DNA from: Nitrospirota bacterium
GTDB lineage: Bacteria > Nitrospirota > Nitrospiria > SBBL01 > JAADHI01
Length of the DNA: 64,000 nucleotides
NCBI GenBank assembly: GCA_029261155.1
Contig: JAJDBW010000061.1
Coordinates: forward strand, 62,001 to 126,000
Direction: 5' to 3'
In this document: in pieces, positions 8,641-28,133 of the stretch
How positions within the stretch are numbered: the first letter of the stretch is position 1
Layout of the letters: the number at the start of each line of letters is the position of its first letter
The notes under the pieces: model-generated
The model's input: only the letters and a program-made list of their open reading frames with translations
The model's database searches: none
Told to the model about the DNA's origin: nothing
Translations under genes and position numbers: made by a program

Positions 8641-8685
8641 CGTCCCTTGAACCGAACACGATCATTGAGCAAGGAGTTCCTCATC

Positions 8686-9492
8686 ATGGAAGAAAGAGAG
8701 ATCGCCCCTTTAAAAGAAGCTGAGATCACCCGCACCATTGCACAAGAATCCTTTAAGGCCTTCGACCAAGTCATCTCGTCGGATGTGTTGATCGTCGGGT
8801 CTGGGCCATCCGGCCTGATCTGCGGTGCTGAGTTAGCTTCTGCGGGCTACAACGTGGTCATCATCGAGCAATTGAATCACATGGGGGGCGGATTTTGGAA
8901 CGGCGGGTACTTGATGAACAAGGCTGCCATCGCGCACCCAGCCCAAGAGATTCTGCTCAAAATTGGTGTCCCTTGCAAGGAAATCACAAAAGAGATGTAC
9001 ATCGTCGACCCGCCCCATGCCACGGCCAACCTCATCCGCCATGCCTATGATTCCGGGGCCAAAATCCTCAATATGACCAAGGTCGTGGATCTGGTGATCC
9101 GCGGCGAAGACCACCGCTTGGAAGGCCTGGTCGTCAATTGGTACCCCTTGGAGGTCATGGGTCACGACGCCGCCCACGTCGATCCCATCGCCCTGGAATC
9201 GAAAATCGTTGTCGATGCAACCGGCCACGATGCGGTAACGCTCGACCTGCTCGCAAAAAGAGGGCTCTACGAAGCCGTGCCGGGAAACGGCGCGATGTGG
9301 GTTGAACGGTCTGAAGAGATGGTCATGAAAAAAACGGGTGAGCCTTATCCAAACCTGTTTGTGGTCGGACTTGCAGTCGCCGCCGTTTATGGCAGCCCGA
9401 GAATGGGTCCGTCTTTCGGGGCGATGCTGCTTTCGGGAAAAAAAGGGGCGGGATTGATCAAAAATAAGCTCGGGACGCTCTCATCGAAATAG
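8686..9492 (+). CDS. thi4: Thiamine thiazole synthase Thi4, sulfide-dependent (His) type
   Basis: FAD/NAD-fold enzyme that builds the thiazole phosphate of thiamine from NAD and glycine, 268 residues. AAGGAG at 8671-8676 supports the ATG at 8686 over an in-frame TTG at 8647. The dinucleotide motif is VGSGPSGL (37-44). At the position of the sulfur-donating Cys of the yeast suicide enzyme, this protein has His164 in AAHVDP, as in archaeal Thi4 that uses free sulfide and turns over. It shares the riboswitch-controlled operon with thiC. No thiG, thiS or thiF is in the window. Confidence 0.93.
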   Translation: MEEREIAPLKEAEITRTIAQESFKAFDQVISSDVLIVGSGPSGLICGAELASAGYNVVIIEQLNHMGGGFWNGGYLMNKAAIAHPAQEILLKIGVPCKEITKEMYIVDPPHATANLIRHAYDSGAKILNMTKVVDLVIRGEDHRLEGLVVNWYPLEVMGHDAAHVDPIALESKIVVDATGHDAVTLDLLAKRGLYEAVPGNGAMWVERSEEMVMKKTGEPYPNLFVVGLAVAAVYGSPRMGPSFGAMLLSGKKGAGLIKNKLGTLSSK

Positions 9493-9721: not shown

Positions 9722-10846
9722 TCAACATTGAGTTGAAACGCGCGTAGAGCGCATCTCCTTAAATTCAGTGAACTTTTCAGACACATAAGCCGAGATCTTA
9801 CTTTTAAAGATCTCCTTGTCAAACTTCTCTGCATGCCGCCGTATTATTTTAGGATCGAATTCCATTGTCGTAAATTTTTCGATAGCTTCAATAAGAGATT
9901 CAGGCGTCTGTTCTTTAAAGAAAAGCCCTGTGGTCCCATCCACCACCGTTTCTAGGGCACCTCCTCCTGCATAAGCAATGATGGGTTTCCCCGATGCCAT
10001 CGCCTCCACCGGTGCAATGCCAAAATCTTCGAGGCCTGAAAAGATCAATCCGCGCGATTTGCTCAGATAATGTGCCACTTCATCTTGAGAGACCTTCCCT
10101 AAAAATCGAATGTTGCTATTCGCCATCTTTTTAAGTGTGTCCATATAAGGTCCCGCCCCAATAATGATAAGCGGAAGTCCGAGCTGATTAAAGGCTTCTA
10201 TAACAAGGTCAACTCTTTTGTAGGCATTTAATCTAGAGAGTACTAAGAAATAATCTTCATGTACATCGGAAATATAAAATGAAGAAATTTCGACGGGAGG
10301 AAATATCACATCTGCATTGCGGTGATAGACCAATTTAATCCTATTCCGAATGTGATCGGAAATGCCGATAAAATAATGAACACGTTTTACCGTATTAATA
10401 TCCCAGCGTTTTAATCGAGCAAGGACCCAGGGGAGGATGAGTTTAAAAAATGGATTGATGTTTTCGCGTGATAAATAAGCCTCCGAATCCCAGACAAAGC
10501 GCATGGGCGAATAGCAATAACAGATATGGCAAACATTTTCTGGAACCCGTACTCCTTTAGCAAATGCGCTACTACTGCTTAATACGAGATCAAAGCCGCT
10601 TAGGTCAAAGCTTTCAATGGCGGAAGGGAAGCACAGAAGATATTTCTTAAAATGCCGTTTGATGAAAGGCAGGTGTTGCATGAAGGAGGGCCTAACGTCA
10701 AAAGTAGAAAAACCAGCGGGAAGGTTTTTCGGTTGGAAAATTGAAGTATATATTGGCGCATCCGGGAAAATCTCATGAAGCGCTTCGACCACTTTTTCGG
10801 CACCACCGTACTGATTAAGATAATCGTGGACGATGGCGACTTTCAT
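9722..10846 (-). CDS. GT4-family glycosyltransferase
   Basis: Cytoplasmic retaining glycosyltransferase with GT-B fold, 374 residues. The N-terminal HDYLNQYGGAEKVVEAL pattern and the C-terminal EX7E-type donor site (SGLEDFGIAPVEAMASGKPII) place it in GT4. The family includes mannosyl- and rhamnosyl-transferases that use nucleotide sugars. It is the last gene of the minus-strand polysaccharide cluster and probably adds one residue to the repeat unit or the primer region. Donor and acceptor cannot be read from the sequence. Confidence 0.88.
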   Translation of the reverse strand: MKVAIVHDYLNQYGGAEKVVEALHEIFPDAPIYTSIFQPKNLPAGFSTFDVRPSFMQHLPFIKRHFKKYLLCFPSAIESFDLSGFDLVLSSSSAFAKGVRVPENVCHICYCYSPMRFVWDSEAYLSRENINPFFKLILPWVLARLKRWDINTVKRVHYFIGISDHIRNRIKLVYHRNADVIFPPVEISSFYISDVHEDYFLVLSRLNAYKRVDLVIEAFNQLGLPLIIIGAGPYMDTLKKMANSNIRFLGKVSQDEVAHYLSKSRGLIFSGLEDFGIAPVEAMASGKPIIAYAGGGALETVVDGTTGLFFKEQTPESLIEAIEKFTTMEFDPKIIRRHAEKFDKEIFKSKISAYVSEKFTEFKEMRSTRVSTQC

Positions 10847-10902: not shown

Positions 10903-12039
10903 CTAGTTTTTAACGACATGATTATAAACATCCAGGGTTTTAGATGCACATTTTTCCCAGGTAAAGATCTTTGCTCGTTTTATCCCCGCCTGAGTCAAAA
11001 GGTCTCTCTGGACAGGGTTCGTGAGAAGATTCTCCATTTCTCGCGTTAACTGACTTACATTATGTGGATCAATAAGAATGCCCGCACTTCCGAGAACTTC
11101 GGGAAGTGAAGAAGTATTGGAAGTAATTACTGGTGTTCCACAGGCCATTGCTTCAAGAACCGGAAGACCAAACCCCTCGTATATTGAAGGATAAACGAAC
11201 ACGGTGGCGCCGCCATACAGCGACGGGAGATCACTTTTTGGAATGTATCCTGTGATATAAGTCGTAGACTTTATTCCCAATCCCTGAATTTTTTTCTCTA
11301 GGTCTTCCATCAACCACCCGACGCCACCCGCTAGTACCAAGGGAAATCTATTTCGCAAAACACTCGGGAGTTCGGCATAGGCATTGAGCAATGTGACTAT
11401 ATTTTTACGAGGCTCTAAAGTTCCAACAGATAAGACGTAAGACCCATGTTTTAGACCATATTTTGACAGTATCAAATTTTCTGTGTTAGGCGAAAAGGGT
11501 TTGAAACTATCGTCCACGCCTAATGGCGTTACTGTAATCTTCTCTTCCGGAAGATTTAATTGCTTGACTAAATCTCTCTTCGTTGCTTCAGAGATGGTTA
11601 TGAAATGATTTGCACGATCTAATCGTGGATAGAAATATCGTTCCATGTATCGGATTCGCTCTTTAGGATGAGTCTCAGGATAGAAATAGAAGGACAGATC
11701 AAAGATCGTTACAACTGTAGGCCCATCGAAGCGCATCGGCACGTAATTGGTTTCATGGTAGAGATTGTATTTTTTCCTAAATTGGCCCCAATAAAACAAG
11801 AGGTCAAGTGTTCGGCGATATACAGGATAGATCAACCTGTATTGTTGGATAAATTTCCTAGCACTTACATATGGTTCTATGGGTTGTTCTTTGAGATGAT
11901 CACTCCACTCAATTCCATAATAAAAAGAGAGGTCCAAATTAATATTTATGTCTAGTAAGGCCTTAGAAGTTTGATAAACATAGTTTCCAACCCCACTTTT
12001 GGGGGCTAGAAGGGGAATCCCATTTATGATTACATGCAT
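10903..12039 (-). CDS. GT4-family glycosyltransferase (mannosyltransferase-like)
   Basis: GT-B fold enzyme of 378 residues. The N-terminal NGIPLLAPKSGVGNYVYQTSKAL is the acceptor-side glycine-rich motif of WbdB/MtfB-like GT4 enzymes. The donor site is VYPSIYEGFGLPVLEAMACGTPV with the EX7E pair intact. TPLGVDDSF is another typical block. It lies 56 bases upstream of the second GT4 gene and belongs to the same polysaccharide locus. A mannose or rhamnose donor is plausible because gmd is in the locus, but this is inference. Confidence 0.88.
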   Translation of the reverse strand: MHVIINGIPLLAPKSGVGNYVYQTSKALLDININLDLSFYYGIEWSDHLKEQPIEPYVSARKFIQQYRLIYPVYRRTLDLLFYWGQFRKKYNLYHETNYVPMRFDGPTVVTIFDLSFYFYPETHPKERIRYMERYFYPRLDRANHFITISEATKRDLVKQLNLPEEKITVTPLGVDDSFKPFSPNTENLILSKYGLKHGSYVLSVGTLEPRKNIVTLLNAYAELPSVLRNRFPLVLAGGVGWLMEDLEKKIQGLGIKSTTYITGYIPKSDLPSLYGGATVFVYPSIYEGFGLPVLEAMACGTPVITSNTSSLPEVLGSAGILIDPHNVSQLTREMENLLTNPVQRDLLTQAGIKRAKIFTWEKCASKTLDVYNHVVKN

Positions 12040-12161: not shown

Positions 12162-13400
12162 TTATATTATTTCAATCTCGGGAAATGGGAAAATGAATTT
12201 TCCGCCACTCGCTAAAAAATCTTTTTCTCTGCGGAGTATACCATCCTTGAAATGCCATGGTAATACTAAAAAATAGTCAGGCTGTATCGCACGTGCTTCC
12301 TTTTCGGAAATAATAGGTATATGTGTGCCAGGAGTTACACGACCAAATTTCTCTTCGTTTACTTCTGCGATCGCAGAGATATCAGATGACGTGAAACCAC
12401 AAAATTGCAGAACCACATTTCCCTTAGTTGATGCACCATAGCCCAGGATTTTTTTCCCATCCGAGTTGAGAGTGCGAATGAGTCGAGTTAAATCGTCACG
12501 ATGTCTAAATACGCGTTCTTCAAATTCTCGATATGGACGCGGGGTACTCAATCCCATTCGATCTTCTTGATCTAATAACCATTCAATGACAGCATTATTG
12601 GCCTTTAATGAGGTATTCGATCGTTTTGTAGCAGTGATTGCAAAACTCCCCCCGTTTACAGAATTCATAAAAACATCTATAAGCCGAAGTTCAGCGGCCT
12701 CAAGAATCAACTTGATCACTCCTAGTGAATAATACTCTAAGTGCTCATGACATATCGTGTCGTAAGAATTCAGACGTAACATAGATGGCATATAACTTTG
12801 TTCGAAATGCCAAATGCCATCATCAGCAAGGGTAGATTCTATTTGTTTCGCAAACTTAATTGGAGAGTCAAGGTCGTAAAGCATCGCGATAGAAGTAATT
12901 ATGCTAGCAGGTTTTTTCTCTTTGGAATGATACGCCTCGATTGAAAAAAATTCCGGAACGAGAACAATTTCTGAGGGGTAATGCTCAAAAAACTTTGTTC
13001 CAGTGGGATCAATCCCAATGCGCCGAATGCCTTTAGATCTGTAGGCTTTTAATGTTGTCGCATCATTACTTCCTATATCGAGTACTACATCACCGGTCGA
13101 TAAGGGTTTAAGTTTTTCTAGATAAGCAATTTTGTCAGTTAAATGAGTGACCATCGTTTGATTCAGTCCAGAGCGATATCCATAGTTATCGCCATAGAGT
13201 TCCGAAGGATCGTAAGAATGATTTAACTGTAGCAACCCACTATCAGGAGACCACACTAATTCGAGAGGACCAACCGTGATATTATCATGTGGATCCTTTG
13301 GAAAAACACCAGTCAATGCTTGATGTCCAAGATTTAGAACGGAGATTAAGTTTTTTTTCCCACTTACTCGACAATTTGTTATCTGTTTATAAGAATTCAT
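12162..13400 (-). CDS. SAM-dependent sugar C-methyltransferase-like protein
   Basis: Class I methyltransferase, 412 residues, of the three-domain group (putative Zn-binding, methyltransferase, C-terminal) that includes NDP-sugar C-methyltransferases. The SAM motif is VVLDIGSNDATTL near residue 107, and the C-terminal domain carries GYGASTKGNVVLQ. The N-terminal zinc motif is degraded: CRxC reads CRVS, and the second pair reads SPDS where CxxC is expected. AGGAAGGA lies six bases before the ATG. It sits inside the polysaccharide locus, so it probably methylates a sugar nucleotide or the glycan. Confidence 0.78.
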   Translation of the reverse strand: MNSYKQITNCRVSGKKNLISVLNLGHQALTGVFPKDPHDNITVGPLELVWSPDSGLLQLNHSYDPSELYGDNYGYRSGLNQTMVTHLTDKIAYLEKLKPLSTGDVVLDIGSNDATTLKAYRSKGIRRIGIDPTGTKFFEHYPSEIVLVPEFFSIEAYHSKEKKPASIITSIAMLYDLDSPIKFAKQIESTLADDGIWHFEQSYMPSMLRLNSYDTICHEHLEYYSLGVIKLILEAAELRLIDVFMNSVNGGSFAITATKRSNTSLKANNAVIEWLLDQEDRMGLSTPRPYREFEERVFRHRDDLTRLIRTLNSDGKKILGYGASTKGNVVLQFCGFTSSDISAIAEVNEEKFGRVTPGTHIPIISEKEARAIQPDYFLVLPWHFKDGILRREKDFLASGGKFIFPFPEIEII

Positions 13401-14613: not shown

Positions 14614-16998
14614 TCATACATCAAGAATATTTCGAAACATTCGTTGAATATTGTATTTATTTTCAAATAACTTTCTGTTGTATGTAGATATGAAATTAAG
14701 ACTACTCCGATTGGAATAAAAGTTTAAGATTTTATTCTTCAGATCTTCAATGAAATTATTATCGTCAATAACACATTTATCTTGGACCATTAGATAACCA
14801 CTTCCCCTGTTAGTTAATAATGGACGCCCAAGAGATAAAGCACGAGGTATTATATGACTAAGCTGACCACGATCTTGCCTGCGACAAGCGACGACAATAT
14901 CCGAGGCTATCATTAGAGCGTCAAAAACATCTTCCTCTTCAGGATTTTCAAAATAAAGACAGTCCAAGATCGCCAAATTTGAAAAAGATGTTTGAATAGC
15001 TTGTAGTATATTTTGATCATGAATTACGCCACATACCAAAAATAATATGTTTGATATTTTGCTAGAGATCCGATGATAATGACATGCATTGGATACCGCT
15101 TCGGCAATTTTATCAATATATTTGTTATCAGTTATGGACCCAAATATTCCAATGACTAGGTCATTACTGGAAATTTTTCTCCGTCTCCTCCATAATCGGG
15201 CGATTTTAATCCCTGAAATGCTCCCTCTATCATGAATACCAATGTCGACATAGGATTTTTTAATGACTAGTTCATTTTTACTTAAGAGTTTTTTAGATTT
15301 TTCAGCCTCAGGTGTCAAATGGCTGACACATTTAACACCGCGTTCTTTTAGCCAGGCATGATTATACCCAACAATGCTCTGCTCAAATTCAAAATAGTTC
15401 ATGTAATGCGATTTAGATATTTCAGACTTAAGAGGTTGATCATCTCCCACAAAAAATCTATCGATGAATTGAGTTATATTTTTATAGTTAAAATATAAAT
15501 GATAAATTCCATATAAATAAGTATGATCATGGATAATAACAACATCATGTGGTAAGCCATGGTTTTTTAAGAGTTCGACTCCAAACCACAATTTATTGGA
15601 TATTGCAAGATGGAATATTGTAGGTATTTTTTCATCCAAGTCTTGGGCGAAATTCAAGTGGCTTTTTATACGAATGTTGGCGCATGAATTAAGCTTATTG
15701 ATATTAACATCCGAAGTATACATAATTATATTCTTATCTGTTCCAAGTGGAATGCTTCCTGCGTAATCGGCGACACCGCAAAATTCTCCAGGCATATTAC
15801 ATGCCATTTTTGAAATAATTTGATTGTGAAACTCCATAAAATTTTGAGCCGCTTTATCTATGACTTGTGTTATAATTTTTGGAGCTTCTTTAGACCAATG
15901 GTTTAAATAAAAACTACGGAGATCTTCAAACGAACGAATCGTATTAGATGATTCTTCGGTATTAATAAATTTAATAATTGACGATAAATCTTGAATTTCT
16001 GAATTGACGGGTAAAAATAAGACAATGTCTCCCTCATTTTCTTTTAATGGAGCGGTAATTTCTCTGTTCACTTTAATGTCACTACATACAACTCGCGAGC
16101 CCAGAAAGATGGCTTCGAGTAAGGGAATACCGAAACCTTCTTCTTTAGATAAATGGAAAACGGTTTTGGCATCCCTCTGATTTGCAATCTTTTCTATTTC
16201 ACTAATTGAGTGGTTAAATTTCAATTGATTTGTCTCGTCTGGAAATTGAGACATTAAGGAAAAAAGTTGACCACTTGTTGGTACACACAACGAATATCGT
16301 AGTTTATCCACCTTTAGAATACTGTTAAATAATTTAAGGGCAAATAGAGGATTTTTTGAGTGATGATGTCCAATAATTGAAAAAATATCTTTTGTTTTTA
16401 CGTTCTCCCCAAGCTCGTATTGGATATATTCCTTATCAAGGCATGGATAAATCACATCAACTTGATTCTTACTTATGCCAAGATACTCAAAAATCAGATC
16501 TTTAGTGAACTCAGATATTGATATGATGTAGTTTGCCTTAGACAATCTTCTCAAACCATTTCTGTAGTATTGTTTAGAAATGGGATGCACGTCTGGAAGA
16601 TATTCACTTGGATACCTGAGAGGTATTAAGTCATACGCAATTGAAATAACCGGGCATATCGTTATATCTAACCGCATTGGAGGAATAAACGGTGTTGCAT
16701 CAATATAGGCAAATGCTTTTTGTTTACGTAAAATATTTTCAATTTCATAAGATGATTTATGAACATCATTGTCGTCATGGTTTTCTGGCGCAATACCTAT
16801 TGTGTCTGTATTTTTTATAAAAGAGTACAACTTATCATTCTTGTTTAATTTACTATTCTTGTACATTATTAAAGTAACATCAACATTTTCAGAAGCGATC
16901 ATCCGTATAATAAATTTTACGTACCTACCCATACCTCGATCATGGGCTTCTGTACTAAATACTCGTCCATCAACAACAATTATTCGGTTCCTTTTCAT
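14614..16998 (-). CDS. Two-domain glycosyltransferase (WbdA-like polymerase candidate)
   Basis: Protein of 794 residues. The first ~380 residues form a GT4 domain with GMGRYV near the N-terminus, SISEFTKD, and the donor motif HLSKEEGFGIPLLEAI (EX7E). The second half is another GT-B-like domain with GIHDRG and IGIFGSITDNKYID, but its donor site reads RQDRGQLSHIIPRALSLGRP without the EX7E pair. Fused GT4 domains polymerise O-antigen in WbdA-type enzymes, and this gene follows the methyltransferase/coiled-coil gene exactly as wbdA follows wbdD. Its ATG overlaps that gene's stop (TAATG). The codons are strongly A+T-rich. Confidence 0.78.
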   Translation of the reverse strand: MKRNRIIVVDGRVFSTEAHDRGMGRYVKFIIRMIASENVDVTLIMYKNSKLNKNDKLYSFIKNTDTIGIAPENHDDNDVHKSSYEIENILRKQKAFAYIDATPFIPPMRLDITICPVISIAYDLIPLRYPSEYLPDVHPISKQYYRNGLRRLSKANYIISISEFTKDLIFEYLGISKNQVDVIYPCLDKEYIQYELGENVKTKDIFSIIGHHHSKNPLFALKLFNSILKVDKLRYSLCVPTSGQLFSLMSQFPDETNQLKFNHSISEIEKIANQRDAKTVFHLSKEEGFGIPLLEAIFLGSRVVCSDIKVNREITAPLKENEGDIVLFLPVNSEIQDLSSIIKFINTEESSNTIRSFEDLRSFYLNHWSKEAPKIITQVIDKAAQNFMEFHNQIISKMACNMPGEFCGVADYAGSIPLGTDKNIIMYTSDVNINKLNSCANIRIKSHLNFAQDLDEKIPTIFHLAISNKLWFGVELLKNHGLPHDVVIIHDHTYLYGIYHLYFNYKNITQFIDRFFVGDDQPLKSEISKSHYMNYFEFEQSIVGYNHAWLKERGVKCVSHLTPEAEKSKKLLSKNELVIKKSYVDIGIHDRGSISGIKIARLWRRRRKISSNDLVIGIFGSITDNKYIDKIAEAVSNACHYHRISSKISNILFLVCGVIHDQNILQAIQTSFSNLAILDCLYFENPEEEDVFDALMIASDIVVACRRQDRGQLSHIIPRALSLGRPLLTNRGSGYLMVQDKCVIDDNNFIEDLKNKILNFYSNRSSLNFISTYNRKLFENKYNIQRMFRNILDV

Positions 16999-18023
16999 TA
17001 GTTATTTTCTATATTCTTGTCAGTAAATAATAGCCTAATGCGACGCATTAGGGTCAATAATTTTTCTAAGTATTTCTTTGTCTTTAGTAGTAAGGTTTTA
17101 TTCAACCGTGCTTTAGTATCCTCTAGTTCCCTATAGGTTTTATTCAACCGTGCTTTAGTATCCTCTAGTTCCTTATAGGTTTTATTCAACCGTGCTTTAG
17201 TATCCTCTAGTTCCTTATAGGTTTTATTCAACCGTGCCTCTGCAACATCTAACTTGCTATTAGTTCTATCGAACTTTATTTGTAATTGAGATGATTCCTT
17301 TTCATATCTTTCAAGATCACTATTTAGTGAGCTATTAAAGGAACATGTGCGATCTATTACGATATCATCTAGAAAACCTGGTGGAAGAATGAAATGTTGT
17401 TTTAAATATAGGTGTTCGGAGGCTGAATAAAATTCATTAATACCATCAAAATAGAGTAACTCATATTTACTAGATGCCAAAAACTCCTGGCATTTAGTAT
17501 CAATTCTTTTGCGGTAAATAGGGTCAATCGCCTCAATGACAACTATCCATGGCCGATGAATTAAAAAGTTACAACTTTTCAATATATCTAACTCGGCTCC
17601 TTCTGCATCAATCTTTAAAAAATGAACATCCTTTCCCTTGATAAGTTGGAATATAGCATCCAAGGTTAGGATTTCGATGTCAGTTTCTTTGACGAGATAA
17701 CCAGATTTGATGTACCACTTTGCTAAGCTAGAATCTAAGGTACTAAGACCAGAGGGTTCGACTTCGAAGAAAGTTGTCATTCCTGGTGTGTTTCCTAAAC
17801 AACAGCGCATCGTAATATCATTAGGGCGATCTTTGCTAAGTAGTCTGAACATTGACAATTCAGGCTCAATATTTATACCAGTCCAGCCTGCATCATAAAA
17901 TGTTTTAGTTACAGACCCTTTTCTGGAATGATGTGCACCAACATCAATGTAGCTGCCGCCTTTTATTCCGTTTAATGCTCTCCAGAGAATTACATCCTCG
18001 AAGTTTTGAGAATACGATATCAA
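16998..18023 (-). CDS. FkbM-family methyltransferase with C-terminal coiled coil (possible chain terminator/ruler)
   Basis: Protein of 341 residues. Residues 1-215 are an FkbM-type SAM methyltransferase: SYSQNFEDVILWRAL, YIDVGAHHSRKGS (SAM site), GINIEPE and FLKIDAEGAELDIL. Residues 232-310 form a long coiled coil that ends in three near-identical 14-residue units (two heptads each) of the type LNKTYKELEDTKAR. A basic amphipathic tail (311-331) follows and could touch the membrane. The gene lies between wzt and the two-domain glycosyltransferase and overlaps both. In E. coli O8/O9a this place is held by WbdD, whose methyltransferase caps the chain and whose coiled coil sets its length. The same job is inferred here. 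Confidence 0.82.
   Translation of the reverse strand: MISYSQNFEDVILWRALNGIKGGSYIDVGAHHSRKGSVTKTFYDAGWTGINIEPELSMFRLLSKDRPNDITMRCCLGNTPGMTTFFEVEPSGLSTLDSSLAKWYIKSGYLVKETDIEILTLDAIFQLIKGKDVHFLKIDAEGAELDILKSCNFLIHRPWIVVIEAIDPIYRKRIDTKCQEFLASSKYELLYFDGINEFYSASEHLYLKQHFILPPGFLDDIVIDRTCSFNSSLNSDLERYEKESSQLQIKFDRTNSKLDVAEARLNKTYKELEDTKARLNKTYKELEDTKARLNKTYRELEDTKARLNKTLLLKTKKYLEKLLTLMRRIRLLFTDKNIENN
17094..17237 (-). repeat. 42-bp tandem repeat, 3.4 copies, inside the FkbM methyltransferase gene
   Basis: Copies at 17094-17135, 17136-17177 and 17178-17219, then an 18-base partial copy to 17237. Copies two and three are identical and copy one differs by a single base (C for T). Each unit encodes 14 residues, exactly two heptads, so a change in copy number keeps both the reading frame and the coiled-coil register. 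Confidence 0.95.
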
Positions 18024-19252
18024 GAAACACCCCGCTTCACATCAATACAAATATTTGTTGGCAGCCACGTTGTGCCTAAAAAATGGTCTTTATTAGTATT
18101 TGTCACTTTGAATAACAGTGCTCTTTCGATCCATTTGTAATTGGAAAATAGTGTTATACCATCGGTTTCTACCAATGCGATTGAGACAGAATAACTTCCA
18201 GGACCAAGGTGAGCGACAAATGTACATTTAAAAGCCACTTCATCTCCGTTAAAGAGATCTCTGGTAATTTGATTGGAATAATTGGTGTTTGTTCCAAATA
18301 TATCTTGCCCGAATCTATCTTTTATCATGAAGCCAAAGGTAAGTGCTGGGATAGCTGACTTTACTTTGCATTTTGTGTTTATAGTATAGCTCTCTCCAGT
18401 AAAAATAGATTCGATTGCTTGATTGTTGCAATCTGATATATAAATATCTAGTAACTCAACCTCATCCGAACCATATTCATATGATAATTTATTATCGCTT
18501 TCCGAAATTTTTAGCGTGTCACTTTTTTGTGAATTCACCAGAGCAGTATAGCGTTCAGAAGCTGATTCTGCATTACCACTAAACAATAGTTGTCCATTAT
18601 GTAATATAATCGCATTTTCGCACAACGCTTTCACAGATCCAGCATCATGAGACACAAATAACAACGCTGTTCCTTCCTCTTTAATTTGTCGAATACGATT
18701 AAAGCTTTTGTGCTGAAAATATAGATCTCCTACAGAAAGAGCCTCATCGATAATCAATAAGTCTGGACGTTTAGCGGTGGCTACAGAGAAAGCAAGGCGC
18801 ATTGCCATCCCGCTTGAATACGTTCTAAGGGGTTGGTCGAAAAAAGACCTCAATTCAGAGAATTCATACACATACTCAATTAAAGAAGTGAGTTCGCCAA
18901 CATCATTACCCATGAGTAACAGAGAATATTCAGCATTTTTTCGTCCGCTTGCTTCTGGATTGAACCCCATACCAAGTTCTAAAATAGCAGATACAGAACC
19001 GTTTATTTTAATTGTTCCCTCGGTTGCTTGTAATGTTCCCGCCACTATTTTCAACAGGCTACTCTTTCCGGCCCCATTAAGGCCTAGAATCCCTATCGCA
19101 TCACCATGGTTTAAGTGTAAACTTACATTTCGGAGGACCCAGTGTTCTTTTGATGGCTTAAACGCGAGACCGAAAAAAGCTCCAATTCGTTGCCAATCAG
19201 GCTTGTAGATCTTATAGGATTTTCCAATATCCTCTACGATAAGCAGGCTCAT
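18020..19252 (-). CDS. wzt: O-polysaccharide ABC transporter ATPase Wzt with C-terminal carbohydrate-binding domain
   Basis: ATPase of the ABC exporter that moves undecaprenyl-linked polysaccharide to the periplasm, 410 residues. The N-terminal domain has Walker A GLNGAGKS (57-64), the signature YSSGM (145-149), Walker B LLIIDE (165-170) and the switch His in VSHDAGS. Residues ~260-405 form the Wzt_C beta-sandwich, which in O9a-type systems binds the modified non-reducing end of the glycan. It overlaps wzm and the FkbM methyltransferase gene by ATGA on either side. This domain implies a capped chain made before export. Confidence 0.92.
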   Translation of the reverse strand: MSLLIVEDIGKSYKIYKPDWQRIGAFFGLAFKPSKEHWVLRNVSLHLNHGDAIGILGLNGAGKSSLLKIVAGTLQATEGTIKINGSVSAILELGMGFNPEASGRKNAEYSLLLMGNDVGELTSLIEYVYEFSELRSFFDQPLRTYSSGMAMRLAFSVATAKRPDLLIIDEALSVGDLYFQHKSFNRIRQIKEEGTALLFVSHDAGSVKALCENAIILHNGQLLFSGNAESASERYTALVNSQKSDTLKISESDNKLSYEYGSDEVELLDIYISDCNNQAIESIFTGESYTINTKCKVKSAIPALTFGFMIKDRFGQDIFGTNTNYSNQITRDLFNGDEVAFKCTFVAHLGPGSYSVSIALVETDGITLFSNYKWIERALLFKVTNTNKDHFLGTTWLPTNICIDVKRGVS

Positions 19253-20043
19253 AAAGCATCAACCATTTCCGCGTTCGCACGGCGAAAAAGGAATAAGCTC
19301 AACAGCATCAATACTAATGCTAGGACAGCAATGATTGCTAAGGTTCCTAGTTCAGGCTTAGCTCCGTATACAAGCACGTTGTGATAAGCTTTTGTTATAG
19401 GGTACATAGGGTTAGCGTTCAATAAATGGCGATATTTTTCCGGAATGATATTTTCTGGATATGCAATGGGTGTAAACCAAAACCATATTTGGAGAATGAT
19501 GGGCACGACCTGCCCAATATCCCGCAAAAAAACATTCATCACTCCAACAATAAGGCCGATGCCGACCGCAAGTGTGATCACCTGTAGAGTAAGAGGTATG
19601 AGCCATAGCATTCCTAGATTTGGATAGTGGCCAAGCATCAAAAAAACACCGAACATAGAAACGAACAGGAGGAAATTGTTTAGAAGACAAGACCCAACAA
19701 CTATAGTAGGAAGAGCAATACGGGGAAAAGTCATCTTCTTCATTAGGTTGCCCTGTTCGATGAAGAGCGTAAGGCATCGACTTATGATTTCACTGAAAAG
19801 ATTCCAGGCAAGTAAACCAGCCATCAAGTAGAGGGCATAGCCATATTTATTATTGATACTGGGCAGCCTAGCAGCGAGCACATTCGAGAGAATAAGTGCA
19901 TAAATGGCAACCTGGGCGAGAGGATTGATGATCATCCACAATCCACCCAGCGTGCTCCTTGCAAACCGACTGGCAAGTTCGTTTCTGATGGAGCTAATAA
20001 CAAAGTGGCGATATTTAAATAGACTTCGAAAAACACTAAGCAT
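19249..20043 (-). CDS. wzm: O-polysaccharide ABC transporter permease Wzm
   Basis: Six-helix ABC-2 type permease, 264 residues, partner of Wzt. AAAGGAAATTG directly before the ATG at 20043 decides the start; the longer frame to 20079 has no ribosome-binding site. The conserved N-terminal block RNELASRFARSTLGGLWMIINPLAQ (typical of Wzm/KpsM) and FTPIAYP near the C-terminus are present. It is the first gene of the wzm-wzt-methyltransferase-glycosyltransferase operon. Confidence 0.93.
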   Translation of the reverse strand: MLSVFRSLFKYRHFVISSIRNELASRFARSTLGGLWMIINPLAQVAIYALILSNVLAARLPSINNKYGYALYLMAGLLAWNLFSEIISRCLTLFIEQGNLMKKMTFPRIALPTIVVGSCLLNNFLLFVSMFGVFLMLGHYPNLGMLWLIPLTLQVITLAVGIGLIVGVMNVFLRDIGQVVPIILQIWFWFTPIAYPENIIPEKYRHLLNANPMYPITKAYHNVLVYGAKPELGTLAIIAVLALVLMLLSLFLFRRANAEMVDAL

Positions 20044-20406
20044 CAATTTCCTTTTATATACAATGAAAAATGAATCCATTTAATGAACTATTATAACTGC
20101 AACCTAAGACCATACGAACCGAAAAAAAGAAATATCCTGAATCCCTTTGTGATTCATTTTGTAATTTATTTGGTGTCTTATTTGTTTGTCGTTAAGATAC
20201 TATTTCGGTGAATAATAATATAGGTGAGAGGCCGCATATTAAAGACCACTAATTTTGAAATTATTCAGTTTAAGGAAAGACTTTTGGTGATTAATTGCTG
20301 ACAAAATTGTCCACGGATTATTTTACAAGTAATGAAATAACGATCTGACCTATCGAAAATAACTCCATGATAAATTTCTTATCCATTAATATTACCCCAA
20401 AAAAGA
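20044..20406. other. A+T-rich intergenic region between gmd and wzm
   Basis: About 360 bases with no gene-like frame, no JUMPstart/ops element and no clear terminator. Apart from the possible -10 listed separately, nothing could be recognised. Confidence 0.5.
20090..20095 (-). promoter_or_regulatory. Possible -10 element of the wzm operon
   Basis: A perfect TATAAT on the minus strand 47 bases before the wzm ATG. The -35 at the standard spacing is poor (TTCGTA), so the call is weak. Confidence 0.3.
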
Positions 20407-21724
<1,318 letters not shown>

Positions 21725-24160
21725 TCATCCAAACTGCTGGGGATCGATCTCGATTTCTATTTGAATCCTTCCTTTTGTGATGTTTCGCCACTGGTCCATT
21801 GCAGGCTTAAGGACTTTGGCGATGTGTTGCTGGTCCTTCCCTTTGATGAGAATTTGATAACGGTAGTATTGCTTGATCCGAAGCCGTGATGCGGGGGCGG
21901 GACCCAAGACGCTTAGCCCCTTCCCCGAACTGAGTTTTTTAAGGCATTCAGCCAGGGAGGTGGCTTCTCTCACAAGCACATCCTCCACACGGTGTTTAAG
22001 GAGGACCAAGGCCAGTCGGCAATAGGGCGGATAGTTGCTTTCCTTGCGTGCGTGGATGCTCTGCTTGTAAAAACTTGGATAATCTTGTCGTGTGGCGGCC
22101 TCAATGGCAATATTTTCGGGCTGAAAGGTCTGAAAGAAGACTTCGCCGGGCAGCGCGCCCCGTCCTGCGCGACCGGCAACCTGGGTTAAAAGCTGAAAAG
22201 TCCGTTCGGAGGAACGGAAATCCGGAATGTGAAGCGACTGGTCGGCCGACAAAACACCGACAAGAGTGACTTTTTGGAAATCGTGGCCCTTCGTGATCAT
22301 TTGTGTGCCGATCAGAATATCGGTTTCCTCCCGCTCCATGGCCCCTAATATCTTGGCCTGGGCCCCTTTTTTCTGCGAGGTATCGCGATCGAGCCTTGCG
22401 ACTTTTGCTTTCGGAAAAAGTGCGCGAATATGCTCTTCCACTTGCTCGGTTCCAATCCCAAGGGCATGAATCTCAGTTCCCTGACACTGGGGACATAGAC
22501 TCGGAGAAGCGGTTTGGTATCCGCAATAATGGCAAGTCAGGCGATTGATTTCTTTGTGATAGGTCAGGGACACGCTGCAATGGCGGCAAGGCGGCGCATA
22601 TCCGCAATCGCGGCAGAGCAAAAAGGGAGAAAATCCTCGCCGATTCACAAAGAGAAGCACCTGTTCCTCCGCATCAAGTCGTTTCTTGATGGCGTCTACC
22701 AGGGCTTTCGTGAAAAAAGGGCGTAGCCATGCGGCCTTTTCTTTCAAGTCGATCAGATGAACAAGGGGCAAAGGCCGGGCATCAATCCGTTCGGGCAGCT
22801 GTAGCAGAGCATATTTTCCGCTTTGTGCGTTGTAATAAGACTCGAAGGAAGGCGTTGCCGAACCCAGGATGACAACAGCCCCTTCGTCTCTACCCCGCAC
22901 CAAGGCCACATCCCGGGCATGGTATCGACTGCCTTCCTCTTGCCGATAGGACGCATCGTGTTCTTCATCGACAATGATGGCCCCAAGCGATTGAAAGGGA
23001 GCAAAAATCGCCGATCGCGCGCCAATGGCCACATCCACTTTCCCTTCACGTATCCGTCGCCACTCGTCGTAGCGCTCCCCTGCCGAAAGCCCACTGTGGA
23101 GCAAAGCAACGCGATCTCCAAAGCGTTCGTAAAATCGCGCGGCGATGGAGGCCGTTAAACCAATTTCTGGTAGAAGCAAGATAGAAGGCTTACCCCCGGA
23201 AGCGACGGCTTCAATGGTTCGAAGATAGATCTCGGTCTTTCCGCTCCCGGTAACACCATAGAGCAACATGGGCGAAAAAGCCCCTTTATCGATCGCCGAG
23301 GCAATAACCGCCATCGCGGCCTTCTGGTCTTTATTGAGAGAAATCTCCCCTTTTGCAGGATAAGCGATTCCCTGACCGGGATTCCGAGACACCCCTTCAT
23401 CCACCTGCATCACGATCCCTTTTTCATGAAGACGCGCCATCGCCGCGCGCAAGGAAGAGGAGGGAAGGGTATTGATATAGATCTCGCCCCCATTCTTTCG
23501 CAGAAGATTCAAGACTTCCGCTTGTTTCGGCGCAGACCTTTCTAGAGAGACGATCAGCTTTTCGATCTCCTGGGGAATTGCTTTTAATATCGCCTTTTTC
23601 TGCATCTTGGGTTTCACGGGAGAAGCAAGAAGCACCCAGCTTTCGAGGATACATCCTCTTTTTTTCAAGGCAGACAACGATCGCTTCAAGTCTTTCGCGC
23701 CAAGTTCCTTCCGAATCTCCGTTTCCCAGAGCGAATCTTTATTTTTTAAGTGTTCTAAAATTTCAAGCTGCAGAGAAGACCGGATTCCCTTCTTCTTCGC
23801 CTCCACCGTGTCGCTCAGTCTGAATCGTCTGCGCGGGAGAGCATGAATCCCTTGAGGCAATGCGGTTTTAATCAAAGCGCCAAGCGGACTCTGATAATAA
23901 ACAGAAATCCAAAGCAATAGCTTAAAAAGCTTGGACGAAAGCAATGAATTTTCGTCCAAAATGGCGAGCACCGCCTTGGTCGTCGGCACCTCCGGCTGAT
24001 TGACATTTTGGACAAAAAAGGCAAGCTTCCAGCCCTGAGCAAAAGGCACCATTAAGCGGGTGCCCTCACTCAAGACCGTCTTCTGAAGCGAATCGGGAAG
24101 GTGGTAGTGATACCGCCCATCCGTTTCGGGAAGCACGCATTCTATATAACGTCGGCTCAT
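21725..24160 (-). CDS. priA: Primosomal replication protein N' (PriA helicase)
   Basis: Superfamily 2 3'-5' helicase that restarts stalled forks and loads the replicative helicase, 811 residues. The N-terminal 3'BD/winged-helix region is followed by Walker A GVTGSGKTEIYL, the DEEHDASY box and the SATPS motif. A zinc-binding insert carries eight Cys in the pattern C-C-C-C (CRDCGYAPPCRHC) and C-C-C-C (CHYCGY, CPQCQG). QVAGRAGRG is motif VI. Its start overlaps the upstream glnE half-gene by ATGA, an unusual operon partner. Confidence 0.97.
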   Translation of the reverse strand: MSRRYIECVLPETDGRYHYHLPDSLQKTVLSEGTRLMVPFAQGWKLAFFVQNVNQPEVPTTKAVLAILDENSLLSSKLFKLLLWISVYYQSPLGALIKTALPQGIHALPRRRFRLSDTVEAKKKGIRSSLQLEILEHLKNKDSLWETEIRKELGAKDLKRSLSALKKRGCILESWVLLASPVKPKMQKKAILKAIPQEIEKLIVSLERSAPKQAEVLNLLRKNGGEIYINTLPSSSLRAAMARLHEKGIVMQVDEGVSRNPGQGIAYPAKGEISLNKDQKAAMAVIASAIDKGAFSPMLLYGVTGSGKTEIYLRTIEAVASGGKPSILLLPEIGLTASIAARFYERFGDRVALLHSGLSAGERYDEWRRIREGKVDVAIGARSAIFAPFQSLGAIIVDEEHDASYRQEEGSRYHARDVALVRGRDEGAVVILGSATPSFESYYNAQSGKYALLQLPERIDARPLPLVHLIDLKEKAAWLRPFFTKALVDAIKKRLDAEEQVLLFVNRRGFSPFLLCRDCGYAPPCRHCSVSLTYHKEINRLTCHYCGYQTASPSLCPQCQGTEIHALGIGTEQVEEHIRALFPKAKVARLDRDTSQKKGAQAKILGAMEREETDILIGTQMITKGHDFQKVTLVGVLSADQSLHIPDFRSSERTFQLLTQVAGRAGRGALPGEVFFQTFQPENIAIEAATRQDYPSFYKQSIHARKESNYPPYCRLALVLLKHRVEDVLVREATSLAECLKKLSSGKGLSVLGPAPASRLRIKQYYRYQILIKGKDQQHIAKVLKPAMDQWRNITKGRIQIEIEIDPQQFG

Positions 24161-25764
24161 TTCGCGCCTGGGCTTTGTGGATAAAAAATGGCCTGAAAAA
24201 TACGATGGACACGCTCGGTATTAAAATTGAGATCCGCTTTCAATTGCGCCTCGGCTGTTTTTTGACCTTGATCTAGATAGCCAAGGCTTCTAGCAAGCGA
24301 TTGCCGCTGGCTCGGATCGCCGGGTATCAGGTGGGTCTGCCGGTCATTTTCCATTTGAAGTTTATTCTCAACATCCCTCAAAAAAAGATAGGCTTTGCGT
24401 AAATCCGTTTCCGAGGCCTTGGCGAGCTGTGCTTCTTTCGCCATCCATCGCAGTGCATCAATTGTATTTACTTTTCGGAATCTTAAATCACTTGAACAAA
24501 AGGAAAGTACTAAAGATTGGGCAATAAACTCGATCTCCCGAATCCCCCCGTAGCCACGCTTCACATCTCGATATTCTAGATCGTCTGTCGCGATAGATTC
24601 ATCGATTTTCACTTTGCAATCGCGCACCTCCGCAAAACCTTCGGGACCAAAAGGGCTGTAGACAAAATCGCCAGCCAAATCCAAAAATGCGCGGCCGAGA
24701 GATCGGTCTCCGGCCACAAGCCGTGCGCGCAGTAGGGCCAAACGTTCCCAGATCTCGCCCCGATTTTTATAATAGCGGCGATAGCCCTCCATAGGTAAGG
24801 CGATCGCGCCGGCATCCCCTTCCGGCCGTAAGCGAAGATCCACCCGGTAGACATAACCTTGCTCCGTTCGCTCGTTCAAGGCCGCGGTAATCTCCTGGGC
24901 AAGACGTTCATAATAGCGTGTTCTACCCATCCTCGCCTTTCCTTTTTGCCCTTTTGTTTCCCCTTTACCGGAGGCATAGAGGTAAATCAGATCGACATCG
25001 GAACTAAAATTTAACTCCCGGCTTCCCAGTTTTCCCAACGCGATTACAGTAAAACCCGAAGCTCGCGCTTTCGAGGCATCGCTTTCGTCTACGGGTTTGC
25101 CAAAGGTCTGCCGAAGGGCGCGTTCGCAAATCGCGTAAGCCTGTTCGATCAGAACGTCGGCAAGATTGGACAGTTCGCGAAGGGTCCGTTCAACACTCGC
25201 CTCGCGAAGTAAATCCCGCACGCCGATTCTAAGAATCTCCTTCCGCTTAAAAATGCGCAACATGTCCAATCGGCTCGACTGGGATTTAACCAAGCCTAAG
25301 GATGCCCGAAGCTCCTTTCTGTAGTCCGATTTTCCTTTTGGAAGACGCAGACCCTCGGGGCTAAAAATCCAATAAAAATACTCTGGATTTCGAATAAGGA
25401 CATCTGAGAGAAAAGGGCTTGCTCCGAAAACGAAGGCCAGCTGATGGAGAGTGCGGGGCGAGGCTTGCAGATACGAAAAAAAATGTGTTTTACTGAAAGT
25501 CGTTTTGCAGAAACGCTCGAAGTTGTTCAAGGCTTGGTCCGGATTCGGCGATTCTGAAAAGGCCATTAAGGCCTCTTCGAGAAATTCTGAAAAAATGAGC
25601 CTTTCTACCGGATCACATGAGATTAATTGAAGGTTCATATCTGCTTTTTTATATTCTCGAATACCGAAAGGCGTCAACAGTGCGGCCACCTGTTCGTCAT
25701 CGAGTTTCGGGGCAAGCAATAAATCTTTTATGTTAAGGGGTGTCGGTTTCATGCGGCGCATCAT
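24157..25764 (-). CDS. Half-length GlnE: N-terminal (adenylyl-removing) type nucleotidyltransferase
   Basis: Protein of 535 residues that matches only one half of the usual ~940-residue GlnE. The nucleotidyltransferase core has ALGKLGSRELNFSSDVDLIYLY (residues 242-263) with both catalytic Asp (256, 258), then YRVDLRLRPEGDAG. The ELNFSSD form resembles the E. coli N-terminal domain that removes AMP from glutamine synthetase. A C-terminal helical domain (GGIREIEFIAQ) completes the unit. The other half is the divergent gene starting at 25920. The start is uncertain: ATG codons at 25764, 25761 and 25752 lie on or just after a TATAAT, so a near-leaderless start at 25752 is possible. Confidence 0.82.
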   Translation of the reverse strand: MMRRMKPTPLNIKDLLLAPKLDDEQVAALLTPFGIREYKKADMNLQLISCDPVERLIFSEFLEEALMAFSESPNPDQALNNFERFCKTTFSKTHFFSYLQASPRTLHQLAFVFGASPFLSDVLIRNPEYFYWIFSPEGLRLPKGKSDYRKELRASLGLVKSQSSRLDMLRIFKRKEILRIGVRDLLREASVERTLRELSNLADVLIEQAYAICERALRQTFGKPVDESDASKARASGFTVIALGKLGSRELNFSSDVDLIYLYASGKGETKGQKGKARMGRTRYYERLAQEITAALNERTEQGYVYRVDLRLRPEGDAGAIALPMEGYRRYYKNRGEIWERLALLRARLVAGDRSLGRAFLDLAGDFVYSPFGPEGFAEVRDCKVKIDESIATDDLEYRDVKRGYGGIREIEFIAQSLVLSFCSSDLRFRKVNTIDALRWMAKEAQLAKASETDLRKAYLFLRDVENKLQMENDRQTHLIPGDPSQRQSLARSLGYLDQGQKTAEAQLKADLNFNTERVHRIFQAIFYPQSPGAK

Positions 25765-25919: not shown

Positions 25920-28133
25920 ATGTTAAAAAAAAAGAAGGCCACCATTACTGCGCTTTGCAAGGATTTCGATCCGAAAGCCTTGGAAGAAATCCTCCGACAC
26001 TTTAGCAGGGATTACTTTCAGTTTTGCACCCCTGAGGAAGTGGCCGCGCATCTCCATTTATCGCAGTCCCTGAGGCCCGATTCGCCGCTGACGCTTCGCA
26101 TTCGCCAAGAATCCGCCGAGTCCTACACAATCGTCGTCATTGCCTACGATTATTTTTCCGAGTTTTCCATACTCTGCGGGCTGATCTCCGCCTTCGGTTT
26201 CAATATCGAAGCGGGATCGGTTCAAACTTTGTCGGACGGCGAGGGACGAAAAAAGATCATCGACCTCCTTCGCGTCCGCTTAATCGGCTCGACGGCCTTC
26301 GATTCTAGGGCCCGAGGCTTATTCGAGGCCGAGCTTTTACGACTCATCGGTCTCCTAGACAAAGGTCATTTCAGGGAGGCCCGCAAAGCGGTAAACCATC
26401 GTCTCGTCGAAAATTTTTCTCGAATGCACGGAGAAGCCGGCTCCGGCGCAGGCCCCTTAAGCGGACTCTTAAGCCCCATCGAGATCCATTTCGACAACAG
26501 TCACAGCGATCAATGGACGACGCTCAGCATTCGGGGGCAAGACACCCCCGCCTTTCTCTATGCCTTTTCGAATGCTCTTGCCATGCGGAATATTTATATC
26601 CATAAAATTAAGATTGATCAAAACGGGTCAGCAATCCATAACCGGCTCTCGATCTCCAACCGGCGGGGACGACAAATTACAGGCAAGGCCGAACAAAAGG
26701 CCCTCAAGATTTCGGTCGTCCTAATCAAACAGTTTGTTCATTATTTGAGCGTCGCGCCCGACCCGATGATGGCCATACAACACTTTGATCAATTTTTGGA
26801 TAAAATCCTCGAAATGGCAAACTCCCGCCCGCTTATTGCCTTTTTGAAGAAAAAAGAAACCATGGCCTTGCTTGCCCGCTTCTTTGGCAGCAGCGGTTTT
26901 CTCTGGGAAGATTTCTTGAGACTCCGCTTCGACGATTTCTTTCCCATCCTGGAAGACCTCAAACGAAAGCCCGTCCGCATCGGCAAAAATGCCATGGCGA
27001 GGGCAATCGGCCGTCGCCTCGCTTCAGTTTCAGATTTCGAGGCCAAGAAAAAAGTCCTGAACGACTACAAGGACGAAGAGATGTTTCGCATCGACATGCG
27101 TCACCTCCACGAACCGCATTATGATCTCCTCCCCTTTTCGGGAGCCCTCAGCGACTTGGCGGAAGTGGTGGTCGAAACGGCCTATAAAATCTGCGACGAA
27201 GACCTCGTCGCCCGGCACGGTCACCCACTGCACAAAAGCGGAGACGGATCGACTGTTTCCTTTTCCATCTGCGCCTTGGGAAAATTTGGAGGGCGCGAAT
27301 TGGGCTATGCCTCCGATATTGAGTTGGTCTTTATTTATGAAAGCGATGGACGCACATCTGGATCACAAGCTATTGAAAATAAAATTTATTTTGAAAAACT
27401 TTCCCAAAAGATCATCGACTTTATTCAAGCCAGGCAGGAAGGTATTTTTGCCATCGACGCACGTCTCCGTCCCTATGGTCAGTCCGGTCCATCTGCGGCT
27501 TCTTTAGACGTCTTTCAACTCTATTACTCAGAGGAAGGCAAGGCCGCGCCTTTTGAACGGCAGGCACTCATTAAACTCCGGGTCGTCGCGGGCAGTCCCG
27601 CTTTGGGCAGGCAATGTGAGGCCTTTCGAGATGACTTTGTATATGGTAATCAACCTTGGAATAGGGAAGACGCGCTGGCACTCCGGAAAAGGCAGATGGA
27701 CGAATTGGTGCCAAAAGGCAAGGTGAATGTAAAATACAGTGCCGGAGGCCTCATCGACATCGAATATCTCTGCCAGTATCTCCAGATTATTCATGGAAAA
27801 GACCAAGCTTCCATTCGGACGCCAAATACCCTGAAAGCATTGGCGGCCTTGGAAACGGCCGAGATTCTTGATGTGAATATAGTGAAGGATTTGGACGCGG
27901 CTTATCGATTTTTCCGCGCCCTCATCGACGCCCTTCGCATTGTGCGCGGCAATGCAAAGGACCTCCTCATTCCGGAAACAGATTCGGAGGAATTCGTCTT
28001 TTTATCGAGAAGGATGGGTAAGGGCGGGCGGGATTGGGAAAAAGGGAGCCGTTTGCTGGAAGCGGAACTCCGACGACACCTCTCCACAACGCATGACCAT
28101 TTTCAAGCGCTTTTCCCCTCCGAAATCCTTTAG
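25920..28133 (+). CDS. ACT-domain/GlnE C-terminal-like (adenylyltransferase-type) fusion protein
   Basis: Protein of 737 residues with an unusual layout. Residues ~68-125 and ~198-265 look like two ACT-type regulatory domains. Then comes a nucleotidyltransferase domain with CALGKFGGRELGYASDIELVFIY (451-473) and AIDARLRPYGQSGPSA, closest to the C-terminal adenylylating half of GlnE (GKLGGWELGYSSDLDL in E. coli). The second catalytic Asp is replaced by Glu468. GGLIDIEYLCQYLQ marks the helical partner domain. The gene is divergent from the AR-like half. The ACT domains could sense glutamine directly, as in GlnD; that is inference. No strong ribosome-binding site precedes the ATG. Confidence 0.75.
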   Translation: MLKKKKATITALCKDFDPKALEEILRHFSRDYFQFCTPEEVAAHLHLSQSLRPDSPLTLRIRQESAESYTIVVIAYDYFSEFSILCGLISAFGFNIEAGSVQTLSDGEGRKKIIDLLRVRLIGSTAFDSRARGLFEAELLRLIGLLDKGHFREARKAVNHRLVENFSRMHGEAGSGAGPLSGLLSPIEIHFDNSHSDQWTTLSIRGQDTPAFLYAFSNALAMRNIYIHKIKIDQNGSAIHNRLSISNRRGRQITGKAEQKALKISVVLIKQFVHYLSVAPDPMMAIQHFDQFLDKILEMANSRPLIAFLKKKETMALLARFFGSSGFLWEDFLRLRFDDFFPILEDLKRKPVRIGKNAMARAIGRRLASVSDFEAKKKVLNDYKDEEMFRIDMRHLHEPHYDLLPFSGALSDLAEVVVETAYKICDEDLVARHGHPLHKSGDGSTVSFSICALGKFGGRELGYASDIELVFIYESDGRTSGSQAIENKIYFEKLSQKIIDFIQARQEGIFAIDARLRPYGQSGPSAASLDVFQLYYSEEGKAAPFERQALIKLRVVAGSPALGRQCEAFRDDFVYGNQPWNREDALALRKRQMDELVPKGKVNVKYSAGGLIDIEYLCQYLQIIHGKDQASIRTPNTLKALAALETAEILDVNIVKDLDAAYRFFRALIDALRIVRGNAKDLLIPETDSEEFVFLSRRMGKGGRDWEKGSRLLEAELRRHLSTTHDHFQALFPSEIL

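Follow-up and report, generated by a model that had tools for sequence, protein, structure and literature searches.

Gene content of the locus

The window, by which we mean the whole stretch of 64,000 nucleotides that was analysed, carries a polysaccharide cluster on its minus strand. According to the open reading frame calls and the Pfam and NCBIfam matches, transcription runs from gmd through wzm and wzt to a gene for an FkbM-family methyltransferase with a coiled coil, followed by genes for a large glycosyltransferase, a second methyltransferase, a C-methyltransferase-type enzyme and two GT4 glycosyltransferases (Table 1). The genes wzm and wzt as well as wzt and the FkbM gene overlap by 4 bp, and the overlap between the FkbM gene and the glycosyltransferase gene is 1 bp. 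The order of the four genes from wzm to the large glycosyltransferase and their overlapping arrangement had been described in the initial annotation of this DNA, and the reading frames and Pfam domains agree with it. The end of the locus, which had been set at position 20043, corresponds to an internal start of wzm; the open reading frame begins at 20079.

Table 1. Features of the polysaccharide cluster, with positions in the window
Feature	Position	Strand	Evidence
gmd, GDP-mannose 4,6-dehydratase	20407..21420	-	TIGR01472 2.1e-134, above its cut-off
wzm, ABC-2 type O-polysaccharide export permease, 276 aa	19249..20079	-	Pfam ABC2_membrane 1.9e-22
wzt, export ATPase with C-terminal carbohydrate-binding domain, 410 aa	18020..19252	-	Pfam ABC_tran and Wzt_C; Aquifex aeolicus Wzt match
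Wzt_C domain, predicted methyl-cap reader	18065..18481	-	Pfam, residues 258-396, 1.1e-32
FkbM-family methyltransferase with coiled coil, 341 aa, TTG start; predicted chain terminator/ruler	16998..18023	-	PF05050, TIGR01444, AlphaFold2
Predicted continuous helix/coiled coil, residues 229-339, basic amphipathic end	17007..17339	-	AlphaFold2, heptad score, tail charge/moment
In-frame 42-bp tandem array, 3.5 copies, 99% identical	17093..17237	-	Tandem Repeats Finder
GT4-type glycosyltransferase, 794 aa, probably two catalytic modules; predicted polymerase in WbdA-like position	14614..16998	-	Pfam
Second class I methyltransferase, same operon, basic C-terminal tail, 381 aa	13442..14587	-	Pfam Methyltransf_11 9e-10
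Sugar C-methyltransferase-type enzyme, 412 aa	12162..13400	-	Pfam Methyltransf_13/23/14
GT4 glycosyltransferase	10903..12039	-	Pfam Glycos_transf_1 6e-37
GT4 glycosyltransferase	9722..10846	-	Pfam Glycos_transf_1 8.6e-29

The glycosyltransferase of 794 amino acids had been described as a two-domain enzyme. Pfam supports this for the first half, where Glycos_transf_1 and Glyco_transf_4 match residues 22-322; the Glycos_transf_1 match to the second half lies below the cut-off (E 0.0069), and thus the two-domain architecture is only likely. A structure prediction of this protein from its single sequence reached a pLDDT of 32 and was set aside. The C-methyltransferase-type enzyme recurs in other FkbM-type loci, with close relatives in four of them (L048, L096, L097 and L034; 705-724 bits).

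The presence of gmd suggests that a GDP-6-deoxyhexose is supplied as building block. The same genome encodes WecA-type and WaaL/Wzy_C-type genes, which is compatible with an LPS O-antigen as product. The GC content is 35-41% across the polysaccharide cluster compared with about 50% in its surroundings, which would fit a laterally acquired cluster. A common insertion site was not found in a genome of the same genus (G001) and one of the same family (G002), since the contigs are split: in the former, the flanking genes priA and thi4 and the wzt locus are on three separate contigs, and in the latter, wzt is on a different contig from priA and thi4.

The FkbM-coiled-coil protein as a candidate chain terminator

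The assignment of the methyltransferase to the FkbM family, already made in the initial annotation, is confirmed by PF05050 (Methyltransf_21/FkbM), which matches residues 27-173 (8.9e-22, 78.5 bits against a cut-off of 22.7), and by TIGR01444 (4.2e-13, 50 bits against 37.7). In an alignment of 30 rows the residues D27, G29, E53, D139 and E141 are invariant and are putative S-adenosylmethionine-binding positions. The AlphaFold2 model calculated with this alignment as input has a mean pLDDT of 89.3; in it, a compact methyltransferase domain is followed by one helix of 111 residues (229-339). Heptad scoring marks residues 223-339 as coiled coil, and spans of at least 35 residues were detected by this scoring in none of the 82 control GT4/GMD reading frames. 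A coiled coil is thus predicted for this part of the protein, and the feature on which the earlier reading had been staked is present in both predictions. A net charge of +5 across residues 311-341 likewise supports the basic tail described before. The hydrophobic moment of this tail is up to 0.56 and its mean hydrophobicity about -0.2, compatible with a contact to the membrane. A motif near the tail, SxSWRxTxPLR, is found in 40 of 64 relatives and is absent from the window protein, which speaks against the reading that we prefer below.

The FkbM protein does not belong to the WbdD family. It is FkbM by both Pfam and NCBIfam and has the class I fold alone in common with WbdD. A search of PDB sequences with the protein found no WbdD chain at E values up to 1, and a structural search with the model returned generic class I methyltransferases only. 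The resemblance to WbdD of E. coli O8/O9a lies in the arrangement: the gene lies downstream of wzm-wzt and upstream of a gene for a GT4 polymerase with several modules, the methyltransferase is followed by a coiled coil, and Wzt has a C-terminal domain predicted to read the cap. With 341 amino acids the window protein is shorter than O9a WbdD (708 amino acids, PMC3482155). The lack of a kinase domain had been pointed out before, and indeed Pfam and AlphaFold2 found only the FkbM domain and the helix in the 341 residues; however, this is not a distinctive property, since only O9a WbdD is a kinase-methyltransferase and its E. coli O8 counterpart has methyltransferase activity without a kinase (PMC3482155).

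Two general features of coiled-coil terminators are present, namely a catalytic domain followed by an extended predicted coiled coil, encoded beside wzm, a Wzt_C-bearing wzt and polymerase glycosyltransferases. Similar combinations of terminator module, coiled-coil ruler and polymerase occur in Klebsiella pneumoniae with ORF6 of O7, WbbB of O12 and ORF7 of O4 (PMC11231755). In O7 and O12 they are fused into one chain, O7 ORF6 being a fusion of methyltransferase-kinase, coiled coil and glycosyltransferase (PMC11231755), and the same holds for FkbM proteins from two other loci (L038 and L048), in which FkbM, coiled coil, GT4 and GT4 (and GT2) modules form one chain, encoded by a gene that overlaps wzt by 4 bp. 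The chemistry of termination is different, with methylphosphate in O7 and Kdo in O4 and O12 (PMC11231755) compared with an FkbM methyltransferase in the window.

We propose, with a probability of roughly 0.78, that the FkbM-coiled-coil protein is a methyl-cap chain terminator with a ruler, which would work in the manner of WbdD but with an enzyme of another family. The steps that we infer from sequence and predicted structure are the following. The ABC-transporter route would make an exported polysaccharide, probably an LPS O-antigen, the chain of which would be polymerised on a lipid carrier by the GT4-type enzymes. The FkbM domain would O-methylate the non-reducing terminal sugar, stopping growth. 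The coiled coil would serve as ruler, together with recruitment of the polymerase: it would keep the methyltransferase site at a set distance from the membrane-side polymerase, so that only chains with enough reach are capped. Wzt_C would read the methyl group by binding the methylated end, and this would license export through Wzm/Wzt. The length of the ruler might shift by in-frame tandem duplication of whole heptads. Known terminators bear a coiled-coil ruler (PMC11231755), and export depends on capping (PMC3482155); in related systems it is established that such terminators set the chain length and that Wzt reads the cap (PMC11231755, PMC3482155, PMC9445017).

Wzt partners and recurrence in other genomes

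The window Wzt aligns over its full length with Wzt of Aquifex aeolicus (8dku/7k2t; residues 6-400, E 6.7e-77), whose Wzm/Wzt transporter (8dku, 8dky) handles a polysaccharide with a 3-O-methyl-mannose/rhamnose cap. According to PMC9445017, the Aquifex domain binds 3-O-methyl-mannose and not mannose, with L300, T346, A348 and W362 forming the methyl pocket and N313 and H350 contacting the sugar, the latter at O2. This pocket is mostly kept or conservatively replaced in the window domain: N313, A348 and W362 are retained, L300 is replaced by M, T346 by S and H350 by V. Among the 33 Wzt_C domains linked to FkbM genes, Asn313 is kept in 32, Ala348 in 31 and Trp362 in 32, whereas the equivalent of His350 is Val in 30 of the 33. 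The loss of this sugar contact in the window domain counts against the proposed reading.

The 33 Wzt_C domains linked to FkbM cluster strongly in trees calculated from 153 such domains: 3-5 changes of the FkbM label are enough, while shuffled labels require about 30, and none of 500 shuffles came as low. All but one of the 33, the window domain included, fall into a set of 37 rows with SH-aLRT values of 95-98, and the Aquifex domain binding 3-O-methyl-mannose is placed just outside it. This suggests that Wzt_C is fitted to this particular cap. The clustering may instead reflect joint inheritance, since the Wzt ATPase domains cluster with FkbM nearly as tightly (6 label changes); the Wzt-FkbM module is inherited together. 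Among the rows of the set without FkbM are those of L237 and L244, whose wzt genes are followed by another methyltransferase-like protein. That this protein is WbdD was considered and dropped, as the L237 protein had no WbdD match in the PDB search.

When 84,980 species genomes were scanned, at least 538 relatives were found, of which the best 80 were kept, and in 30 of these best 80 a Wzt_C-bearing wzt directly precedes the FkbM gene. The named hosts among the relatives are Gammaproteobacteria, Betaproteobacteria, Clostridia and one epsilonproteobacterium, and two further Nitrospirota loci (G034 and G014) also have the FkbM gene directly after a Wzt_C-bearing wzt. The next gene encodes at least 700 amino acids in 25 of the 28 FkbM-type loci where it could be read (median 1201); in the single case examined (L031) its product is a three-module GT4 protein. 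Thus, the position to which the initial annotation had attached importance, with wzt in front and the gene of a large protein behind, recurs in many genomes, or the protein is fused to polymerase domains.

Alternatively, the sugars that FkbM methylates while the chain is made could be internal or side-chain residues, and the coiled coil could be a tether to the export and polymerase complex that measures nothing. In class relatives, other loci encode FkbM proteins that lack the coiled coil, and FkbM-coiled-coil proteins occur in genomes without Wzt_C (10 of the 11 checked, which had been picked from loci without adjacent wzt), as would be expected for such a function. However, three observations speak against it: the FkbM gene strictly adjoins wzt genes of a distinct Wzt_C branch whose pocket is of the methyl-sugar type, polymerase modules are fused behind the coiled coil, and the length varies in a ruler-like manner by whole heptads (see below). 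We consider it unlikely compared with capping of the chain end.

That Wzt_C loci generally carry FkbM was ruled out by a Nitrospirota survey, in which FkbM directly adjoined the Wzt_C gene in 0 of 80 loci (one was located at +731 bp), and by a gammaproteobacterial sample, in which it was found at 3 of 40 Wzt_C loci, two of the matches being weak and one being the locus chosen as centre. In Nitrospirota the position after wzt is taken by other methyltransferases in about 23 of 66 loci, by sulfotransferases in 7 and by TylF-type proteins in 6, the rest including glycosyltransferases. This slot would be a place for varied capping chemistry.

In Nitrospirota, the gene next to wzt most often encodes a protein of the Methyltransf_11 type (23 of 66), and the second methyltransferase of the window, a class I enzyme with a basic tail, is of this type. 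The cap could in principle be added by this enzyme, in which case the FkbM protein would be a scaffold or act on another target. Its gene, however, sits behind the FkbM and glycosyltransferase genes, and among the FkbM-type loci examined a strong relative is present in L042 only, making a role as the capping enzyme very improbable and leaving the FkbM domain as the preferred candidate.

The locus had been interpreted initially as a separate solution for terminating and measuring an exported polysaccharide. What holds of this is the use of another methyltransferase family, linked to Wzt_C domains that form one branch with an O-methyl-sugar-type pocket; varied terminators are, however, already an accepted theme (PMC11231755). 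The capping-ruler principle is known, and an FkbM enzyme in place of the usual terminator represents a variant of it. The chemistries of chain termination and the Wzt carbohydrate-binding domains were surveyed by Mann, Kimber and Whitfield (2019, Glycobiology 29:822; title as given in PMC11231755), and this survey may already list FkbM terminators. In a search of literature outside subscription papers, no paper with wzt or O-antigen terms was found that also mentions FkbM. In several phyla, the cap-measure-export logic of a few enterobacterial O-antigens would make use of a different family of methyltransferases, and the recognisable Wzt partner would allow terminator and reader types to be called from sequence.

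Heptad-sized repeats within the coiled coil

Within the coiled coil lies a tandem array that the initial annotation had missed. Its 42-bp unit encodes 14 amino acids, that is two heptads, and the copies differ by one base, making them more alike than protein constraint demands. Arrays with a period that is a multiple of 21 bp were found in 18 of 74 FkbM genes, the window gene included, compared with 24 of 1051 other genes of the same loci; most of the arrays in the rulers of relatives have such a period. Counted from where the methyltransferase domain ends, the SxSWR motif lies between 40 and several hundred residues away. After thinning at 60% identity, this distance equals 5 modulo 7 for 12 of the 24 sequences (p about 0.0005 for so large a class under uniformity), and at 70% identity for 15 of 35. 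The modulo-7 test was picked after the arrays had been seen, and the comparison set of unrelated coiled-coil genes is small (0 of 12 with such arrays); therefore we regard the heptad-quantised ruler length as a strong lead and not as proof.

The terminator coiled coil could be an evolvable length dial, in which in-frame duplication or loss of 21n bp shifts the ruler by whole heptads with the register kept and slippage gives lineages discrete steps of polysaccharide length; the window array would then be fresh and its copy number would be expected to vary by strain. We put this forward tentatively. The array could also be a by-product of the repetitiveness of coiled coils or of short-read assembly and have no functional meaning. 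Heptad-sized indels are favoured in all coiled coils, the comparison covers few coiled-coil genes of other kinds, and the window genome is a draft of 90 contigs in which the 145-bp array is near short-read length, so that its copy number may be wrong. Against a mere by-product stand the frequency of 21n-bp arrays in FkbM genes from independent assemblies, the preference for 5 modulo 7 in the more strictly thinned set and the near identity of the window copies beyond protein constraint, and this explanation appears rather doubtful to us, though far from negligible. Relatives on plasmids offered no usable pairs differing in repeat number.

No paper tying coiled-coil repeats to O-antigen chain length was found in the literature outside subscription papers, and we know of no report of such heptad arrays at the DNA level. 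In our view, the new element is the heptad-quantised ruler. If heptad-sized DNA repeats do alter ruler length, natural series of rulers would make the molecular-ruler model directly testable, and a route for the stepwise evolution of surface polysaccharide length would be given.

Arrays of 42 bp are also present in the genes directly after wzt in the same-genus and same-family genomes, with 100% and 96% identity, respectively; the array-bearing gene of the former encodes a fusion of methyltransferase and glycosyltransferase.

Arrays and Wzt domains in relatives

Like the coiled coil of the window protein (14 amino acids, two heptads per unit), the genes immediately following wzt in the nearest relatives, the same-genus genome G001 and the same-family genome G002, hold arrays with a 42-bp period (100% and 96% identity, respectively). 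Heptad arrays may be a general trait of terminators.

A terminator swap is possible in Legionella bozemanae, because the FkbM-coiled-coil gene there follows a wzt whose C-terminal domain falls outside the FkbM-linked Wzt_C set. In Dyella (G315, loci L022/L239), one contig carries three wzt genes bearing Wzt_C within about 20 kb, and an FkbM-coiled-coil gene comes after one of the three.

Features in the window and in related loci
Feature	Location	Strand	Remark
Thi4-family thiazole synthase gene	window 8647-9492		adjoins polysaccharide cluster
C-methyltransferase-type enzyme	window 12162-13400		gmd upstream
GlnE + GlnD_UR_UTase gene	window 24157-25764	-	one domain of each
GlnE + GlnD_UR_UTase gene	window 25920-28133	+	one domain of each
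FkbM-coiled-coil gene	L056:6492-9260 (L. bozemanae)		wzt 33 bp upstream
Methyltransferase/GT fusion, unlike window FkbM gene	L162:6488-11890 (G001)		directly after wzt
Methyltransferase/GT fusion, unlike window FkbM gene	L174:1403-5965 (G002)		directly after wzt

Possible sugar methylation

The C-methyltransferase-type enzyme has close relatives in four FkbM-type loci (L048, L096, L097 and L034) and a partial one in G001. Lying downstream of gmd, it may make a 3-C-methyl 6-deoxyhexose, for example a virenose-type sugar.

A divergent GlnE-domain pair

E. coli GlnE is one fused protein of two units, whereas in the window two divergently transcribed genes share the same domain pair, possibly encoding separate adenylyl-removing and adenylyl-transferring proteins.
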